From the NCBI RefSeq assembly GCF_035917235.1, contig NZ_CP108423.1, positions 5,547,501-5,611,500 on the forward strand: 64,000 nt of DNA, in the 5' to 3' direction. The notes under the pieces are model-generated. The model saw nothing but the letters and a program-made list of their open reading frames with translations, made no database searches and was not told the DNA's origin. The DNA is from Streptomyces sp. NBC_01294 (lineage in GTDB: Bacteria; Actinomycetota; Actinomycetes; Streptomycetales; Streptomycetaceae). Below, piece after piece: positions 18,243 to 57,860 of the stretch (the stretch's first letter is position 1; the number at the start of each line of letters is the position of its first letter). The translations under genes and the position numbers were made by a program.

Positions 18243-18455
18243 CGCCTCAAACGCCGGCGAGGCTGAAAGATCGCCTCAAACGCCGGCGAGGCTGAAAGAT
18301 CGCCTCAAACGCCGGCGAGGCTGAAAGATCGCCTCAAACGCCGGCGAGGCTGAAAGATCGCCTCAAGCGCCGGCGAGGCTGAATGTGGCCCGGCGGGGCT
18401 GAATGTGGCCCGGTGGGGCTGAGGGTGGCCCGGTGGGGCTGAGAGTGGCCCGGGG
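18243..18455. repeat. Tandem array of a dispersed Streptomyces palindromic repeat
   Basis: Five units of 29 bp start at 18243, 18272, 18301, 18330 and 18359. Each contains CGCCTCAAACGCCGGCGAG plus GCTGAAAGAT and can fold through GCCTC/GAGGC around CGCCGGCG. The array then passes into four roughly 20-bp units (GCTGAATGTGGCCCGG-like, 18378-18455). It fills the gap between the ArsR-like gene and the PhoX-like gene. Related units lie near 24931, 55470 and 57311. Confidence 0.9.
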
Positions 18456-21460: not shown

Positions 21461-21793
21461 TCAGGAGGTCACGGCGGTCCGCACCGGGTAGGTCCGGACC
21501 GCCACCTCCTCGTCGTCCAGACAGCGCCCCGACTCCAGGTCGAAGCGCTGCTTCAGCAGCGGCGAGGCCACGAAGGGCCGGCCCTCCACGGTCCCGAGCA
21601 GTCCGCGCGAGAGCACGTGCGCCCCGGTGAAGGGGTCCTGGTTGCCGATGGCGTACGGGCGCCCCGCGCGGTCGACGAAGACCGCGGCCTGGCTCCCGTC
21701 GGGCAGCAGCGCCGCGACCCCGCGACCGGGGATCAGCGCGGACAGCTCGCACACCGTCAGCCAGCCCTGCGCCACTTGCAGTTCCACGGTCAT
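21461..21793 (-). CDS. nirD: Nitrite reductase small subunit
   Basis: A 110-residue NirD subunit of assimilatory NADH-dependent nitrite reductase. It has a Rieske-type fold (AVFVDRAGRPYAIGNQDPFTGAHVLSRG and ASPLLKQRFDLESGRCLDD) but lacks the Cys/His iron-sulfur ligands, which is normal for NirD. Its ATG overlaps the nirB stop by 4 nt (ATGA), so translation is coupled. It is the last gene of the FAD oxidoreductase-nirB-nirD operon. Confidence 0.92.
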   Translation of the reverse strand: MTVELQVAQGWLTVCELSALIPGRGVAALLPDGSQAAVFVDRAGRPYAIGNQDPFTGAHVLSRGLLGTVEGRPFVASPLLKQRFDLESGRCLDDEEVAVRTYPVRTAVTS

Positions 21794-24315
21794 CGGACGG
21801 CACCTCCTATGGTCAGGACGGCCAGGTCGGGCTTGACCTGGTCGCGTTCGGGGACGAACTTCACGGTCGGGTCGGGGGCGCCGGGCGCGTTGACGAAGGA
21901 CACGAACCGGCGCAGCCGCTCCGGGTCCTCCAGCGTCTCGGCCCACTCGTCCCGGTAGTGCGCCACGTGGTCGGCCATCAGGGACTCCAGCTCCGCACAC
22001 AGCCCGAGCGAGTCGTGCACGACCACGTCCCGCAGGTGCGCCAGGCCCCCCTCCAGCCGCTCCAGCCAGGTGGAGGTCCGCTCCAGCCGGTCGGCGGTGC
22101 GAATGTAGAACATCAGGAACCGGTCGATCAGGCGGACCAGTTCCGCGTCCGACAGGTCCTGGGCCAGCAGGTCGGCGTGGCGCGGGGTGGCCCCGCCGTT
22201 GCCGCCCACGTAGAGGTTCCAGCCGCTCGCCGTCGCGATGACCCCGAAGTCCTTGCTCTGCGCCTCCGCGCACTCGCGGGCGCAGCCGGAGACCGCCGAC
22301 TTGAGCTTGTGCGGGGCGCGCAGGCCCCGGTAGCGCAGCTCCAGGTCGATGGCCATCCTGACGCTGTCCTGGACGCCGTAGCGGCACCAGGTCTGCCCCA
22401 CGCAGGACTTCACCGTCCGCAGGGCCTTCCCGTACGCGTGCCCGGACTCGAATCCGGCGTCGACGAGGCGTGCCCAGATCCGCGGGAGCTGGTCCACACT
22501 CGCTCCGAAGAGGTCGATCCGCTGCCCGCCGGTGATCTTCGTGTAGAGGCCGAAGTCCCGGGCCACCTCGCCGATCACGATCAGCTTGTCGGGGGTGATC
22601 TCACCGCCGGGGATGCGCGGCACGACCGAGTACGAGCCGTTGCGCTGCAGGTTCGCGAGGAAGTGGTCGTTGGTGTCCTGGAGGGCGGCCTGCTCCCCGT
22701 CGAGGACGTAGCCGCTCGCGCCGAGGGTCGGGGCGAGCGAGGCGATGATCGAGCCGACGGTGGGCTTGCAGACCTCGCAGCCGTTGCCGCCGCGGGCCTC
22801 CGGGCGGCCGTGGCCGTCGAGGAGCTGCTCGAACGAGGTCAGCCGGCGGGTGCGGACGATCTCGTAGAGCTCGGCCCGGGTGAAGGGGAAGCAGCCGCAC
22901 AGGCCCTTGTCCGCGGCGGCGGGCAGCAGCTGCCCGATCACCTTGACGCAGCTGCCGCAGCCCGTGCCCGCCTTGGTGCACTTCTTGACCTCGGTGAGGG
23001 TCGCGCAGGCGGCGATGGCCTTCTTCGTGACGTTGTGGCAGGAGCAGATCACCGCGTGGTCGGGGAGCGAGGACGGGCCGAGCGCGACGGGCGCGCCCAG
23101 CCCGGCGGGCAGGACCAGCTGCTCGGGGGAGACGGGCGGGACGCTGCCGGTGAGCGGGCGCAGCAGGCCGTACGAGTCCGCGTCGCCGACCAGGACCCCG
23201 CCGAGGAGGACCCCGTCGGGGGAGACGACCAGCTTCTTGTACACGCCGGAGCGGGAGTCGGACCAGACGACGTCCAGGCTGCCGGGCGTGGCTCCGTGGG
23301 CGTCGCCGAAGGAGGCCACGTCCACGCCGAGCAGCTTGAGCTTGGTGGAGAGATCGGCTCCGGTGAACTCCTTCTCGCGGCCCAGCAGGTCGTCGGCGGC
23401 CGTCTCGGCCATCTCGTAGCCGGGGGCGACCAGACCGTAGACGCGGCCGTCGACGGCGAGCGCGCACTCGCCGATGGCGTAGACGTACGGGTCGGAGGTG
23501 CGGCAGCGGGCGTCGACGGAGATGCCGCCGCGCTCGCCGACGTCCAGCCCCGCGTCACGGGCCAGCTGGTCGCGGGGGCGGACGCCGGCGGAGAAGACGA
23601 CCAGTTCGGTGTCGACGGTGGAGCCGTCGGACAGCTTCATGCCGCTGACGCGGCCGTCCTCGCCGGTCACCACCTCCTGGGTGCCGACGCCGGTGTGGAC
23701 GGTCAGGCCCATGGACTCGATGGTGCGCAGCAGGGCGGCGCCGCCGCCCTCGTCGACCTGGACCGGCATCAGGCGCGGGGCGAACTCGACGATGCGGGTG
23801 GCGAGGCCGAGACCCTGCAGGGCGCCGGCCGCCTCCAGCCCGAGGAGACCGCCGCCGACGACCGCGCCGTGGCTGCGGTCCTTGGCGTACTCCTCGATCG
23901 CGAGGAGGTCCTCGATGGTGCGGTAGACGAAACAGCCCGGGGCGTCCTTGCCGGGGACGGGCGGCACGAAGGGGAAGCTGCCGGTGGCCAGGACCAGGAC
24001 GTCGTACGGGAACACCTGCCCGGAACGGGAGGTGACCGTGCGGGCGGCCCGGTCGATGCGCTCGGCGGGGTCGCCGAGGTGCAGGCTGATGCCGTGCTCC
24101 TCCATGAACCCGGCGGGCGTCATCGACAGGTCCTCGGCGGTGCTGCCGGAGAAGTACGAGGTCAGGTGCACGCGGTCGTAGGCGGGCCGGGGCTCCTCGC
24201 AGAGCACGGTGATCCGGTGCGTGGCGGTGACCCCGCGCTCGGCGAGTGCCTCCAGGTAGCGCTGGCCGACCATGCCGTGCCCGATGAGCACGATCGTGGG
24301 CAGGGGCTCGGGCAT
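21790..24315 (-). CDS. nirB: Nitrite reductase large subunit
   Basis: Reduces nitrite to ammonium with NAD(P)H using FAD, 2Fe-2S, 4Fe-4S and sirohaem. The 841 residues run in the expected order: FAD domain (VLIGHGMVGQRYLEAL), NAD domain (GGGLLGLEAAGAL), a BFD-type 2Fe-2S domain (CSCHNVTKK and GTGCGSCV), and the sulfite/nitrite reductase domain with the cluster cysteines in SCVGQTWCRYG and SGCARECAEAQ. The start at 24315 has GGAGG eight bases upstream and lies one base after the stop of the preceding gene. A GlnR-like site lies before the operon. Confidence 0.95.
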   Translation of the reverse strand: MPEPLPTIVLIGHGMVGQRYLEALAERGVTATHRITVLCEEPRPAYDRVHLTSYFSGSTAEDLSMTPAGFMEEHGISLHLGDPAERIDRAARTVTSRSGQVFPYDVLVLATGSFPFVPPVPGKDAPGCFVYRTIEDLLAIEEYAKDRSHGAVVGGGLLGLEAAGALQGLGLATRIVEFAPRLMPVQVDEGGGAALLRTIESMGLTVHTGVGTQEVVTGEDGRVSGMKLSDGSTVDTELVVFSAGVRPRDQLARDAGLDVGERGGISVDARCRTSDPYVYAIGECALAVDGRVYGLVAPGYEMAETAADDLLGREKEFTGADLSTKLKLLGVDVASFGDAHGATPGSLDVVWSDSRSGVYKKLVVSPDGVLLGGVLVGDADSYGLLRPLTGSVPPVSPEQLVLPAGLGAPVALGPSSLPDHAVICSCHNVTKKAIAACATLTEVKKCTKAGTGCGSCVKVIGQLLPAAADKGLCGCFPFTRAELYEIVRTRRLTSFEQLLDGHGRPEARGGNGCEVCKPTVGSIIASLAPTLGASGYVLDGEQAALQDTNDHFLANLQRNGSYSVVPRIPGGEITPDKLIVIGEVARDFGLYTKITGGQRIDLFGASVDQLPRIWARLVDAGFESGHAYGKALRTVKSCVGQTWCRYGVQDSVRMAIDLELRYRGLRAPHKLKSAVSGCARECAEAQSKDFGVIATASGWNLYVGGNGGATPRHADLLAQDLSDAELVRLIDRFLMFYIRTADRLERTSTWLERLEGGLAHLRDVVVHDSLGLCAELESLMADHVAHYRDEWAETLEDPERLRRFVSFVNAPGAPDPTVKFVPERDQVKPDLAVLTIGGAVR

Positions 24316-24316
24316 G

Positions 24317-25717
24317 TCAGTGGCCTCCGTCGTCGGTGAGCAGGTGGAACAGGTCGTGCGGGGATTCCCCGCCCTCCCAGGTGCGGGCGAGGGCCCCCAC
24401 GGTGGAGAGTTCGCCGAGCAGGACCCCGCCGACGAGGTCGCCGCCGCGCAGGACGACCTTGCGGTAGGTCCGGCGGGTGGCGTCGGCGAGGCGGACCACG
24501 TCGTCGCCGGGGCGGGGGGTGGTCTCGCCGAAGGCGGCGAGGTCGAGGGAGCCGTGCTCGGTTCCGCCGAGGGTGAGGCGGGTGAGGGCGCGGGTGCCGG
24601 TGTAGCGAGCGGGGCCGCCTCCGGTGAGGACCGCGGCGAGGGCGTCGGCCTGCTCCAGGGCTGCGCCCGCCAGGCCGTACACCTGGCCGGCGTGCTCGGC
24701 GCAGTCGCCGATGGCGTGGATGCGGGGGTCGCTGGTGCGGAGCCGGTCGTCGACCACGATGCCCTTGCGGATCTCCAGGCCGGCGGCCTGGGCGAGGCCC
24801 GTGCGGGGGCGTACGCCGCAGGCGAGCACGACGAGGTCGGCGTCGAGCCGGTACCCGTCGGCGAGCTCGACCCCGGTGACCTTGCGCGGAGTGTCCCCGC
24901 CCCGCCGCCTCCCGGGCTCTGCCCGGACCCGCGCCTCAAACGCCGGCGGGGCTGAAAGACCGGGGCTCCGCCCCGCACCCCGTGCCTCAAACGGCGGCGG
25001 GGCTGAAAGACCGGGGCTCCGCCCCCGACCCCGCGCCTCAAACGCCGGCGGGGCTGGATTCAGCGGAGCTGTGGACGACGTGATCAGGCCGCGGACCCGG
25101 CATTCTGTGTGGATCTCCACGCCGAGGTCGGTCAGGTGCGTGGCCAGCAGGGCGGAGGCGTCGGCGTCGAGTTGGCGTTCCATCAGGCGCTCGCCCTGCT
25201 GGGCCAGGACCACCACCGCCCCCCGCGCGGCGAGCGCACGGGCCGCCGAGACGCCCAGCAGGCCCCCGCCGATCACCACCACCCGCACTCCGGGGCGTAC
25301 TGCCGCCGAGAGCGCCAGGCAGTCGTCCATCGTGCGGAACGCGTGGACCCCGTCCGGGAGGTCCCGCCCTTCGGGCTCGAACAGCCCGCGCAGCGGCGGG
25401 AGCACCGCGTTCGAGCCGGTGGCCAGCACCAGCGTGTCGTACCGCTCCACCGTGCCGTCGTCGCCGTGCACGGCCCGCTCCGCGCGGTCGATGCGCACCG
25501 CGCGCACCCCCCGCCGCAGCGCGGGGCCGGGCGCCGGGAGGGCGGTCACCTCGGGCGCGTAGCGGCCCGCGAGGACCTCGGCGAGCAGGACCCGGTTGTA
25601 CGGAACGTGGGACTCCTCGCCGAGCACGGTCACCGCCGCGGCCGGGCCGAGCCGCTGCGCGAGCCGCAGGCCCGCGAGGCCGCCGCCGATCACCACCACA
25701 CGCTGTTCCGAGGTCAT
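24317..25717 (-). CDS. FAD-dependent NAD(P)H oxidoreductase (NasB/NirB N-terminal type) with repeat insert
   Basis: The 466-residue flavoprotein resembles the N-terminal half of NirB. It has an FAD site (VVVIGGGLAGLRLAQRL), an NAD site (VVVIGGGLLGVSAAR), ACGVRPRTGLA and the second FAD motif HAIGDCAEH. In this setting it probably feeds electrons to assimilatory nitrate reductase NasA. Residues about 214-278 are an extra segment made of 17-residue repeats (PAFEARGRGRSPGLSAP-like) encoded by a dispersed DNA repeat. Removing it would join VRGLI to KVTGVELADGY as in relatives. First gene of the nirBD operon. Confidence 0.85.
   Translation of the reverse strand: MTSEQRVVVIGGGLAGLRLAQRLGPAAAVTVLGEESHVPYNRVLLAEVLAGRYAPEVTALPAPGPALRRGVRAVRIDRAERAVHGDDGTVERYDTLVLATGSNAVLPPLRGLFEPEGRDLPDGVHAFRTMDDCLALSAAVRPGVRVVVIGGGLLGVSAARALAARGAVVVLAQQGERLMERQLDADASALLATHLTDLGVEIHTECRVRGLITSSTAPLNPAPPAFEARGRGRSPGLSAPPPFEARGAGRSPGLSAPPAFEARVRAEPGRRRGGDTPRKVTGVELADGYRLDADLVVLACGVRPRTGLAQAAGLEIRKGIVVDDRLRTSDPRIHAIGDCAEHAGQVYGLAGAALEQADALAAVLTGGGPARYTGTRALTRLTLGGTEHGSLDLAAFGETTPRPGDDVVRLADATRRTYRKVVLRGGDLVGGVLLGELSTVGALARTWEGGESPHDLFHLLTDDGGH
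24931..25058. repeat. In-frame dispersed repeat array (51-bp period) within a flavoprotein gene
   Basis: Three copies of GCCTCAAACGSCGGCGGGGCTG begin near 24933, 24984 and 25035. They are spaced 51 bp, with GGGGCTCCGCCCC hairpin sequence between them. The period is 17 codons, so the reading frame is kept. Confidence 0.9.
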
Positions 25718-55208: not shown

Positions 55209-55476
55209 AGGTGGGGCGCGGGGACACTCCGACGGCCGGGGCCGTCGCGCGGCTGCCGCTGCTGACGGACGGCGCCGGCGCAGCAGGTGACGCGGCTGTA
55301 CCGGGTGGATGTGAGGGTGCCTGCGCGGGTGCCTGCGGGGCGGCGTTAGAGGGCCGGGGCCGGGGCCGGGCGGGGCCTGGGCCGAGTTGGGCCTGGGCCG
55401 AGTCGGGTCCGGGTCGGGTGAGGCGCGGGGGTGAGGTGCGGCGCCGTAGCCGGGGCGCTGCCCCGGACCCCGCGCC
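55209..55476. other. Gap after AraC gene with dispersed repeat copy
   Basis: Contains a G-rich tract (GGCCGGGGC/GGGCCTGGGCCGAG repeats, 55350-55410) and the first bases of a dispersed repeat copy, GCGCTGCCCCGGACCCCGC then GCCTCAAACGCC from 55469. No gene is evident. Confidence 0.5.
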
Positions 55477-55550
55477 TCAAACGCCGGCGGGGCTGGATGG
55501 GGCGGCCGGGCTGGGTGTGGTGGGAGGGCTGGGTGTGGTGGGAGGGACGA
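55469..55550. repeat. Dispersed repeat copy plus 18-bp tandem at 3' end of carboxyl transferase gene
   Basis: One copy of GCCTCAAACGCCGGCGGGGCTG is followed by two GCTGGGTGTGGTGGGAGG units (18 bp). They encode PPTTPS twice in the gene's C-terminal tail. Confidence 0.75.
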
Positions 55551-56877
55551 TGCCGCGGGCTACGCCCAGGGAGACCAGGTCCTGGGGGCGGATGCGGAGT
55601 TGGTCCGCCGTGGCCGGGGCGGCCGACGGGGGGCGCTTGAGGATGGCCGCCGCCAGTTCCGGGGCGATGACCGAGAAGTAGCTGTCCGGGGTGACCCAGG
55701 TGTTCCCCGGCGCGGCCAGCGCGAGGGCGCCGCCCGAGCCGCCCTCGCCGATCAGCAGGGTGGTGACGGGGACGGCCGCCCCGGCCACCGCCGCGAAGGT
55801 GTCCGCGATGGCCGCGCCCGCGCCCGCGTGTTCGGCGGCGGCGTCGTTGGCCGCGCCGGGGGTGTCCACCAGGGTGAGCACGGGGATGCCGAGCCGGTCC
55901 GCGAGGCGGATGACGCGGGCGGCCGTACGGTAGCCCGCCGGGCGGGTGGCCGTGCCGCACTGGGCGGCGTACGCCACGGCCCGGCCCTCGCGCAGCCCGA
56001 ATCCGCACAGCATGCCGGGGTCGGTGCCGCCCGCCCGGTCACCGGAGAGGTGCAGGCGCAGCTCGAAGTACGCGTCCAGGTACGCCTCGGCGCGCGGCCG
56101 GTCCGGGTGGCGGGCCTGACGGACGGCGTCCCAGCCGGTGGCCGGAGGCCGTACGTCGGCCAGCGCGGCCGGGGGCTCGACGGGCCCGGCCGGCCGGGGC
56201 GCGGCCAGCACGCGGAGCCAGTCGGCGAGGGTGCCGGGCAGGTGCGCGGCGGGGGCCACGGCGTCCACGTGGCCGGCGGCGTACTGGCCCTCGGCGCAGT
56301 AGGCCGCCGGGTCCGCGTCCGCCGGGCGCACCCGGGAGCCGGCGAACCCGACCTGGGCTCCGGGCAGCGCGAGGACGACGTCGGCCCCGGCCCCGAGGGT
56401 GGCCCAGCCGCCGCCGGTGGTCGGATCGCGCAGGACGGCGACCTGGGGGAGCCCCGCGGCCCGGGTCAGGACGCTCTGGCGGGCCACGCGCTGAAGCTGG
56501 GTCAGCGCGAGCATGCCCTCCTGCATCCGGGAGCCGCCGGTGGCGATCAGCGAGACGAGGGGGAGGCGCTGCTCGCGGGCGTGCGTGTACGCGGCTTCGA
56601 GCCGGTCGCCGGTGCGCCGGCCGAGCGAGCCTCCGAGGAAACCGAACTCGAAGGAGATCACGGCGGCTTCGCGGCCGCCGATGCGGGCGGTGCCGGTGAC
56701 GACGGACTCCTGCTCGCCGGTGCGTTCGGCGGCGCGGGCGCGGGAGGCGTCGTAGCCGGTCCAGGCGAGGGGGCCGTCGGGGGTGGACTCCCGTTGGGGG
56801 GTGGGGAGTTCGGTGAAGCTGCCGGGGTCGGTCACGGAGGCGATGGCCGCGCGGGCCGAGAGGCGGGTCGTCGTCAC
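55477..56877 (-). CDS. Acyl-CoA carboxyl transferase (AccD/AccA-fused type)
   Basis: A 466-residue protein with both halves of the biotin-dependent carboxyl transferase fold. The N-half has FEFGFLGGSLGRRTGDRLEAA and SLIATGGSRMQEG; the C-half has VLTLVDTPGAANDAAAEHAG and LIGEGGSGGALALA, the oxyanion Gly pair. It would transfer CO2 from biotin to acetyl- or propionyl-CoA. There is no zinc ribbon as in E. coli AccD. The last 25 residues (PPTTPSPPTTPSPAAPSS) come from repeat DNA. Confidence 0.87.
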   Translation of the reverse strand: MTTTRLSARAAIASVTDPGSFTELPTPQRESTPDGPLAWTGYDASRARAAERTGEQESVVTGTARIGGREAAVISFEFGFLGGSLGRRTGDRLEAAYTHAREQRLPLVSLIATGGSRMQEGMLALTQLQRVARQSVLTRAAGLPQVAVLRDPTTGGGWATLGAGADVVLALPGAQVGFAGSRVRPADADPAAYCAEGQYAAGHVDAVAPAAHLPGTLADWLRVLAAPRPAGPVEPPAALADVRPPATGWDAVRQARHPDRPRAEAYLDAYFELRLHLSGDRAGGTDPGMLCGFGLREGRAVAYAAQCGTATRPAGYRTAARVIRLADRLGIPVLTLVDTPGAANDAAAEHAGAGAAIADTFAAVAGAAVPVTTLLIGEGGSGGALALAAPGNTWVTPDSYFSVIAPELAAAILKRPPSAAPATADQLRIRPQDLVSLGVARGIVPPTTPSPPTTPSPAAPSSPAGV

Positions 56878-56957: not shown

Positions 56958-57860
56958 TCAGCCGAGGGAGGGGAGGGGGAAGGCGATCTTGAGGGCGTAG
57001 GCGGCGACCAGGCCGTAGCCGAGGCGGAAGGTCCAGACGCGGGCGGTGTCGGAGATGCGGGCGCCGGCGAGGGAGCCGAGGACGGCGAGCGTCTGCTGCC
57101 AGAGGAGTGAGGCGAGGCCTACGCCGAGGAGGAAGGCGGCTCCGGCCGGGCCGGTGCGGAGGGTGGCGCCCTGGGCGGTGGTGAGGGCGGCGAAGTAGAG
57201 GGCGGTGGTGGGGTTGAGGGCGGTGAGGCCGACGTAGCGGGCGAAGGCCTTTGCCGCGGGGCGCGTGCCGGTGCCGGTGCCGGACGCGGGGCTCCGCCCC
57301 GGGCCCCGCGCCTCAAACGCCGGCGGGGCTGGATTTGGTGCCGGCCGGGCTGGGGGTGCCTGTGCGGCTGAAAGATCGGGGCTCCGCCCCGGACCCCGCG
57401 CCTCAAACGCCGGCGAGGCTGGGTTTGGTGCCGGCCGGGCTGGGGGTGCCTGTGCGGCTGAAAGATCGGGGCTCCGCCCCGGGCCCCGCGCCTCAAGCGC
57501 CGGCGAAGCTGGGTTTGGCGCCGGTGGGGCTGGATTTGGTGTCAGTGAGGTGGGGTGGGCCTTGGAGAGGCCGTGGGCTGCGATCGTGAGGAGGATGGCC
57601 GCCGAGGCCAGGCGGACCCAGGCTTCGACCGGGGAGATGTGGGAGGCCACCCAGGGGCCCGTGGCCGTGGCGAGGGCCGCGTAGCCGAGGTCGACCGCCG
57701 CGATGCCCGCGGCCGCGGCCACCGCCGTCCGGCGGCTCCGCATCGCCTCCTGGAGCAGCAGCACGCTCATCGCGCCCATCGGCATCGCCACGCCCAGCCC
57801 CGCGACCGCGCCCGCCAGGGCCGGTGTCATCAGTTCGCTCGTGCTCATGCTCATGGTCAT
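56958..57860 (-). CDS. LysE-family amino acid exporter with large repeat insert
   Basis: A 300-residue member of a family usually about 200-210 residues. The N-part (GAVAGLGVAMPMGAMSVLLLQEA, AGIAAVDLGYAALATATGP) and the C-part (ALNPTTALYFAAL, LLGVGLASLLWQQTLAVL) are typical. Between them, residues about 106-199 are an insert made of three 30-residue units (PASPAFEARGPGRSPDLSAA-like) encoded by a dispersed DNA repeat. The insert falls in the central cytoplasmic loop, so export may survive. It is divergent from an Lrp/AsnC gene, its likely regulator. The start is the ATG at 57860; 57854 and 57848 are alternatives. Confidence 0.85.
   Translation of the reverse strand: MTMSMSTSELMTPALAGAVAGLGVAMPMGAMSVLLLQEAMRSRRTAVAAAAGIAAVDLGYAALATATGPWVASHISPVEAWVRLASAAILLTIAAHGLSKAHPTSLTPNPAPPAPNPASPALEARGPGRSPDLSAAQAPPARPAPNPASPAFEARGPGRSPDLSAAQAPPARPAPNPAPPAFEARGPGRSPASGTGTGTRPAAKAFARYVGLTALNPTTALYFAALTTAQGATLRTGPAGAAFLLGVGLASLLWQQTLAVLGSLAGARISDTARVWTFRLGYGLVAAYALKIAFPLPSLG
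57290..57520. repeat. In-frame dispersed repeat array (90-bp period) within lysE-type gene
   Basis: CCTCAAACGCCGGCGGGGCTG-type cores begin at 57311, 57401 and 57491, each with GGGGCTCCGCCCC hairpin sequence and a GGTGCCGGCCGGGCTGGGGG segment. A 90-bp period equals 30 codons. Confidence 0.9.

Follow-up and report, generated by a model that had tools for sequence, protein, structure and literature searches.

A dispersed repeat carried in frame in a variable loop of a NirB-like oxidoreductase in Streptomyces

The oxidoreductase gene and the repeat array within it

The window considered here, a 64,000-nucleotide stretch of the genome of Streptomyces sp. NBC_01294, contains a flavoprotein gene followed by nirB and nirD, and an array of a dispersed repeat was found in frame inside this gene. 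The features at the locus are as follows:

24317..25717, minus strand, NirB-like FAD/NAD(P) oxidoreductase gene with the insert, 466 aa (open reading frame, PF07992, TIGR02374, fold match)
21790..24315, minus strand, nirB, nitrite reductase large subunit, directly downstream (TIGR02374, 1009.5 bits, cut-off 578)
21461..21793, minus strand, nirD, nitrite reductase small subunit (TIGR02378, 86.6 bits, cut-off 74.65)
24866..25090, minus strand, variable loop of 75 residues (210-284), flanked by two strands (ortholog alignment, AlphaFold2)
24928..25057, plus strand, dispersed-repeat array of two full 51-nt units and one partial unit, read in frame from the opposite strand
24900..24927, plus strand, additional, diverged arm of the element (GGGCTCTGCCCGGACCC variant), recognized by eye from the sequence and the consensus

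The oxidoreductase gene lies directly upstream of nirB, its stop codon and the nirB start being one base apart. The 466-aa protein passed the Pyr_redox_2 model (PF07992) with 187.3 bits (cut-off, 26.1), the match falling into two stretches of which the best ends at residue 213, just ahead of the repeat-coded part, and the nearest solved folds of its structural model are those of BphA4 and putidaredoxin reductase. With the NirB equivalog model TIGR02374, the same protein reached 258 bits, below the cut-off of 578.35. All named sequences among the 120 close homologues listed belong to Streptomyces, and the search of the window against Rfam at the gathering threshold returned three tRNAs only.

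The array comprises two full copies of 51 nt each (24928-24978 and 24979-25029), which are 92% alike, and a third, partial copy that starts at 25030, contains about 28 nt of the repeat and departs from the consensus near 25057. It lies antisense within the open reading frame, whose frame is stop-free at this place, and encodes the peptide PAPPAFEARGRGRSPGLSAPPPFEARGAGRSPGLSAPPAFEARV inside the 75-residue loop. Across 58 nt, units 2 and 3 were 93-95% identical to other genomic copies of the element. In the AlphaFold2 model, obtained with an alignment of 48 sequences (mean pLDDT, 75.9; pTM, 0.74), residues 217-274 are predicted to be unstructured (pLDDT below 50), with flanking strands at residues 208-213 and 279-285. 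The original prediction had placed three copies of a dispersed repeat, with a 51-bp period and in frame, inside an FAD oxidoreductase gene of the nitrite pathway with normal protein on both flanks. The period, the frame, the dispersal and the pathway were borne out, as were the flanks, which gave the Pfam domain match and the enzyme fold match; the third copy turned out to be partial.

The dispersed element and its other occurrences in genes

The element is about 49 bp long. Allowing up to 2 mismatches, its core occurs in 488 copies genome-wide (267 forward and 221 reverse), versus 7 for a reversed control, and the consensus obtained from 653 kb of the own genome reads cGGGGCTCCGCCCCGGACCCC-GCGCCTCAAACGCCGGCG-GGGCTGgA. 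In the window, 13 core matches were found with up to 2 mismatches, versus a mean of 1.72 and a largest value of 6 after shuffling. Outside the oxidoreductase gene, the following features were recognized:

18243..18387, plus strand, core array with a 29-bp period, intergenic according to the list of open reading frames
55475..55489, plus strand, core copy supplying the stop codon by antisense reading (..PSSPAGV*) to an ACCA-like carboxyltransferase gene (55477-56877, minus strand)
56958..57857, minus strand, LysE-family transporter gene (PF01810), second in-frame carrier in the window, start codon provisional
57307..57505, plus strand, three element copies in the LysE gene with 90-bp spacing (57311, 57401 and 57491), read as in the oxidoreductase

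The first of these is the second site that had been foreseen for the core, at 18243 and with a 29-bp period; it is adjoined by an array with a 20-bp period (18370-18449). Among the 145 same-strand spacings of up to 150 bp in the 653 kb, 51 bp was the commonest (58 cases), the next being 29 bp (14 cases) and 52 bp (13 cases). Thus, the in-frame period comes with the element, without need of frame selection, and a frame-selected 51-bp expansion, as originally proposed in the form of growth by frame-preserving steps only, was rejected as stated. All 7 intragenic spacings, which were hand-picked, are divisible by 3, versus 78 of the 138 others (p ~0.018, the spacings not being independent), and the frame preservation of intragenic spacings is regarded as a weak signal.

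The repeat had also been described as palindromic, a description that applies only weakly. The 49-nt unit folds as two small hairpins with a fold energy that is ordinary for its composition (z ~-1 or nearer zero on either strand), and the idea of a strong RNA structure was rejected for this reason. With regard to the terminal inverted repeats and target-site duplications that mark MITEs, the fold showed only these two inner hairpins, and a five-sequence alignment gave no clear borders of the insert. The Y1 transposase (PF01797) was absent from the genome (0/1) and present in 5 of 14 controls; given its absence here, REP-type mobility was set aside. In the tandem unit, 4 of the 6 frames are open, fewer than the mean of 5.74 for 1000 shuffled units. 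The notion of an element evolved to be translatable is therefore unsupported, and the smaller number of open frames speaks for passive survival in open frames and not for shaping for translation. Regarding orientation, 59 of the 84 unmixed clusters point away from dnaA (4.055 Mb; p ~1e-4, gene orientation not separated), and 22 of 106 clusters are mixed. At the sampled loci, coding frames ending inside an array or its 45-nt margin read the array antisense in 19 cases and sense in 4, with 11 mixed.

Coding potential was screened around 106 clusters, a non-random sample that comprised the first 100 listed places of the genome-wide core search, other match places, four arbitrary 20-kb stretches and the window, itself chosen for the finding. 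In the strict screen, no signal was detected on either side of 57 clusters, 46 had a signal on one side, one had signals on both sides in different frames, and only two lay in one open coding frame, both being the window's genes. A relaxed ranking read by eye added five further open frames, so that 7 of the 106 clusters lie in frame inside genes; since the screen required the absence of stops, the stop-free frames of these intragenic copies are partly built in. Pfam backed 6 of the 7 in-frame clusters, and four of the five outside the window are flanked by domains on either side, with the element between the following pairs:

AtuA and AtuA_ferredoxin
Helicase_C and HrpB_C
two ABC ATPase domains
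acyltransferase and KR

The fifth open frame outside the window (L193) had no Pfam match at 1e-5 and is kept as uncertain, which leaves four or five carrier genes elsewhere. Two other candidates were dropped, one (L171) as a chance core match within a real gene and the other (L168) for want of a coding signal. The reading PAPPAFEARGxGRSP, or one close to it, is found in the oxidoreductase, in the LysE transporter and in the open frames L193, L174 and L157. The unrelated genes at L174:2522 and L157:2529 have a longer stretch in common ahead of the repeat (TPPLPETVGSAPSPP.RGSAPDPAGAVFSA), suggesting that the element may also have a longer form. The 120 LysE homologues listed range from 209 to 367 residues, and many of them have identical or similar PAPPAFEARGPGRSP units in the corresponding loop.

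The loop in relatives and its relation to copy number

The ortholog sample comprised 110 best-match loci (L009-L118, with L009 being the window's own gene), of which 109 were readable and 104 distinct, L092 being missing. In the comparison with relatives, the check originally proposed, the insert site is a 13-residue turn in 59 of the 109 loci; in the remainder, the loop measures 14 to 79 residues. Close relatives have longer loops, some of them with the element in either orientation, and the homologues share no single conserved, unrelated segment at this place. The longest loop, 96 residues in genome G047, contains no core match and belongs to a genome without any core copy, indicating that the loop lengthens by other routes too. 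The loops of L055, L057, L200 (G047), P0101, P0104, P0107, P0109, P0110 and P0113 are extended by sequence unrelated to the element, partly short tandem peptides, so that extensions of other kinds are tolerated at the site too. The SPSYRWEVPPGG stretch in the loop inserts of P0004, P0007 and P0057 may stem from a second dispersed repeat; related DNA gave 2-3 matches in 653 kb of the own genome versus 0-1 in the control.

Allowing up to 3 mismatches, 16 core matches were found in 11 of the 109 ortholog loops, three of them being the window's own, whereas 200 rounds of codon shuffling of the loops yielded 0.8 matches on average and 5 at most. The 16 matches lie in 7,101 loop bases, versus 5 in the 138,861 bases that make up the rest of these open frames. 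They comprise 12 antisense (PAFEAR) and 4 sense (ASNAGG) copies and have one codon phase in common, although they are related by descent and not independent. When protein templates were used, 71 of 229 sequences scored above the 99.9% level obtained with shuffled loops; 31 of them have the antisense unit alone, 29 the sense unit alone and 11 both.

The strongest evidence for turnover of the loop comes from the two nearest sequences. P0001 differs from the window in 1 of 391 flank residues and in 4 of 75 loop residues. P0002, from Streptomyces sp. NBC_01310, matches the window at 99.0% identity over the 391 aa of the flanks; its loop, which has 70 residues and contains a sense unit, is a different one. 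A tree of the 229 flank sequences, built by a quick search on ~400 residues and not distinguishing gain from loss, requires at least 28 changes in the presence of the element.

Core copies were counted in 36 genomes, with a backwards control of 0-3 per genome and strand. A paired loop was available for 35, as G014 (15 core copies) was left out because its best match (E 1.3e-23) yielded no ortholog locus. Among the genomes counted, only those rich in core copies have the element in the loop: it was found in that of 9 of the 16 genomes with at least 15 copies and in none of the 19 with fewer than 15. The nine carriers have 32-439 core copies each, and the loops of the 19 low-copy genomes measure 13-32 residues, save that of G047 with its 96. 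Seven genomes with 19-225 core copies, including that of L052 (225 copies), lack a core match in the loop. The association between presence in the loop and copy number gave a Mann-Whitney p ~8e-5 (kinship not corrected), and loop length correlated with copy number at 0.83 without G047 and at 0.71 with it.

Explanations for the inserts and comparison with known repeats

In-frame copies of the element, a short turn in many orthologs and other arrangements in the loops of some relatives are thus directly observed. To judge from these sequence comparisons, they are probably the outcome of a clade-limited dispersed repeat, located mostly outside genes, that has found its way repeatedly into tolerant loops and linkers, where it is translated. 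According to this explanation, the ~49-bp element would have been amplified in some Streptomyces relatives, mostly outside genes, and would have reached many places by insertion or by recombination with other copies, one of them being a hairpin tip in the second nucleotide-binding part of the NirB-like oxidoreductase. Most arrivals within genes would be lost through breaking the protein, while those in floppy loops or linkers and in a stop-free frame could survive as a neutral, disordered peptide, in this case translated as part of a presumably working enzyme. From then on, tandem gain and loss, decay and exchange with other copies would continue to alter the loop. With a period of 51 bp, the one most frequent in the element's arrays, copy number could change here without a frame break, and the gene immediately downstream, nirB, might be disturbed as well by out-of-frame events.

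Among the alternatives, a single ancient insertion of a composite in two orientations, followed by losses only and giving rise to all present forms, is unlikely, although many losses from such a composite would yield part of the observed pattern. Both sense and antisense units are present in 11 of the 229 rows, and a composite was seen in L039 and L010. However, L052, L014 and L015 have short loops without visible remnants, though their genomes contain the element; the window and P0002 differ over most of the loop despite their 99.0% flank identity; and several of P0096-P0112 appear, by eye, to use another antisense frame (QPLRRLRSGG).

It is still less probable that the peptide encoded by the insert has acquired a function, with the loop tuning the enzyme or binding a partner and its variation being selected. 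The recurrence of one reading in five open frames (the oxidoreductase, LysE, L193, L174 and L157) and the several copies in some relatives would fit such a role, but the consensus has only two antisense frames without stops, and this reading is one of them. Moreover, the loop differs between proteins with 99% identical flanks, looks decayed by eye in many relatives, is predicted to be disordered, and lacks the element in a genome with 225 copies.

A role at the DNA or RNA level, as a terminator or as a replication or nucleoid mark that keeps the element in the gene, is slightly more doubtful than use of the peptide. Both the orientation away from dnaA of 59 of the 84 unmixed clusters and the predominance of antisense reading among frames ending in an array or its margin (19 versus 4 sense, with 11 mixed) point in that direction, but the in-gene array is not conserved among relatives and its fold energy is ordinary for its composition. 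Finally, a chance likeness of Pro/Ala/Gly/Arg-rich loops in very GC-rich DNA, or an assembly error, is scarcely credible, since, although element-free loops are likewise rich in these residues and variable in length (up to 96 residues), the 16 core matches contrast with the codon-shuffled mean of 0.8, units 2 and 3 are 93-95% identical to other genomic copies, and P0001, a slightly different second sequence from a contig of another length and so probably from a separate assembly, shows these three units as well, with substitutions.

Recurrent entry of the dispersed repeat into tolerant loops and linkers, the preferred explanation, has parallels in other bacteria. Rickettsia palindromic elements (RPEs) are described, in the excerpts of the papers considered, as in-frame insertions in unrelated genes (Ogata et al., 2000, 2002, via PMC10969869, PMC6649704 and PMC3733652). 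As excerpted there, they resemble the present case as short dispersed repeats translated in frame in several unrelated proteins, here in 7 of 106 clusters. RPEs are, in the same excerpts, ~150 bp long and comprise ten families with a conserved peptide open reading frame, whereas the Streptomyces unit is ~49 bp long, often tandem with 51 bp as its commonest period, and weakly palindromic, its two small hairpins having a z of ~-1; its host is GC-rich, and one loop shows different arrangements in many relatives. The GTAG/CGTC REPs, as portrayed in the excerpts of PMC3733652, are mostly intergenic, with some in genes and some termini supplying stop codons. The Streptomyces element is likewise mostly intergenic, is sometimes in genes and can supply a stop codon, but neither a GTAG nor a CGTC tag was seen in its consensus (by eye, both strands), and the genome has no Y1 transposase. 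The same excerpts report no obvious correlation between Y1 transposase genes and repeat families, and Streptomyces is not mentioned in the main text of that paper. The enterobacterial RU small mobile sequences, intergenic repeats with open reading frames that occur within genes as well, differ in being MITE-like units of 103-168 bp, according to the excerpts of PMC2759123.

As the size and palindrome of RPEs and the tag and transposase of REPs are lacking, the Streptomyces element is filed under neither family, the comparison with RPEs being by description only. By analogy, it appears to work like RPEs and intragenic REPs. Among open-licence PMC papers, the element's sequence strings gave a match on a virus only and none on Streptomyces, and no report of the element was present among the matches listed for papers naming Streptomyces.

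The best-known dispersed repeats in reading frames are those of Rickettsia, commonly explained by reduced genomes and weak selection. We tentatively propose, as a possibility well short of the preferred explanation in likelihood, that in this part of Streptomyces the dispersed element provides a permanent supply of 51-bp units, translatable and neutral to the frame, which keep rewriting disordered loops and linkers in many proteins, so that protein loop diversity would be partly repeat-driven and not due to point mutation. Large Streptomyces genomes, with near-identical strains having different inserts at one site, would represent a natural experiment on the entry of repeats into proteins, the speed of their turnover and their importance, if any. 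Repeat-derived loops also call for caution in annotation and protein clustering in these genomes.
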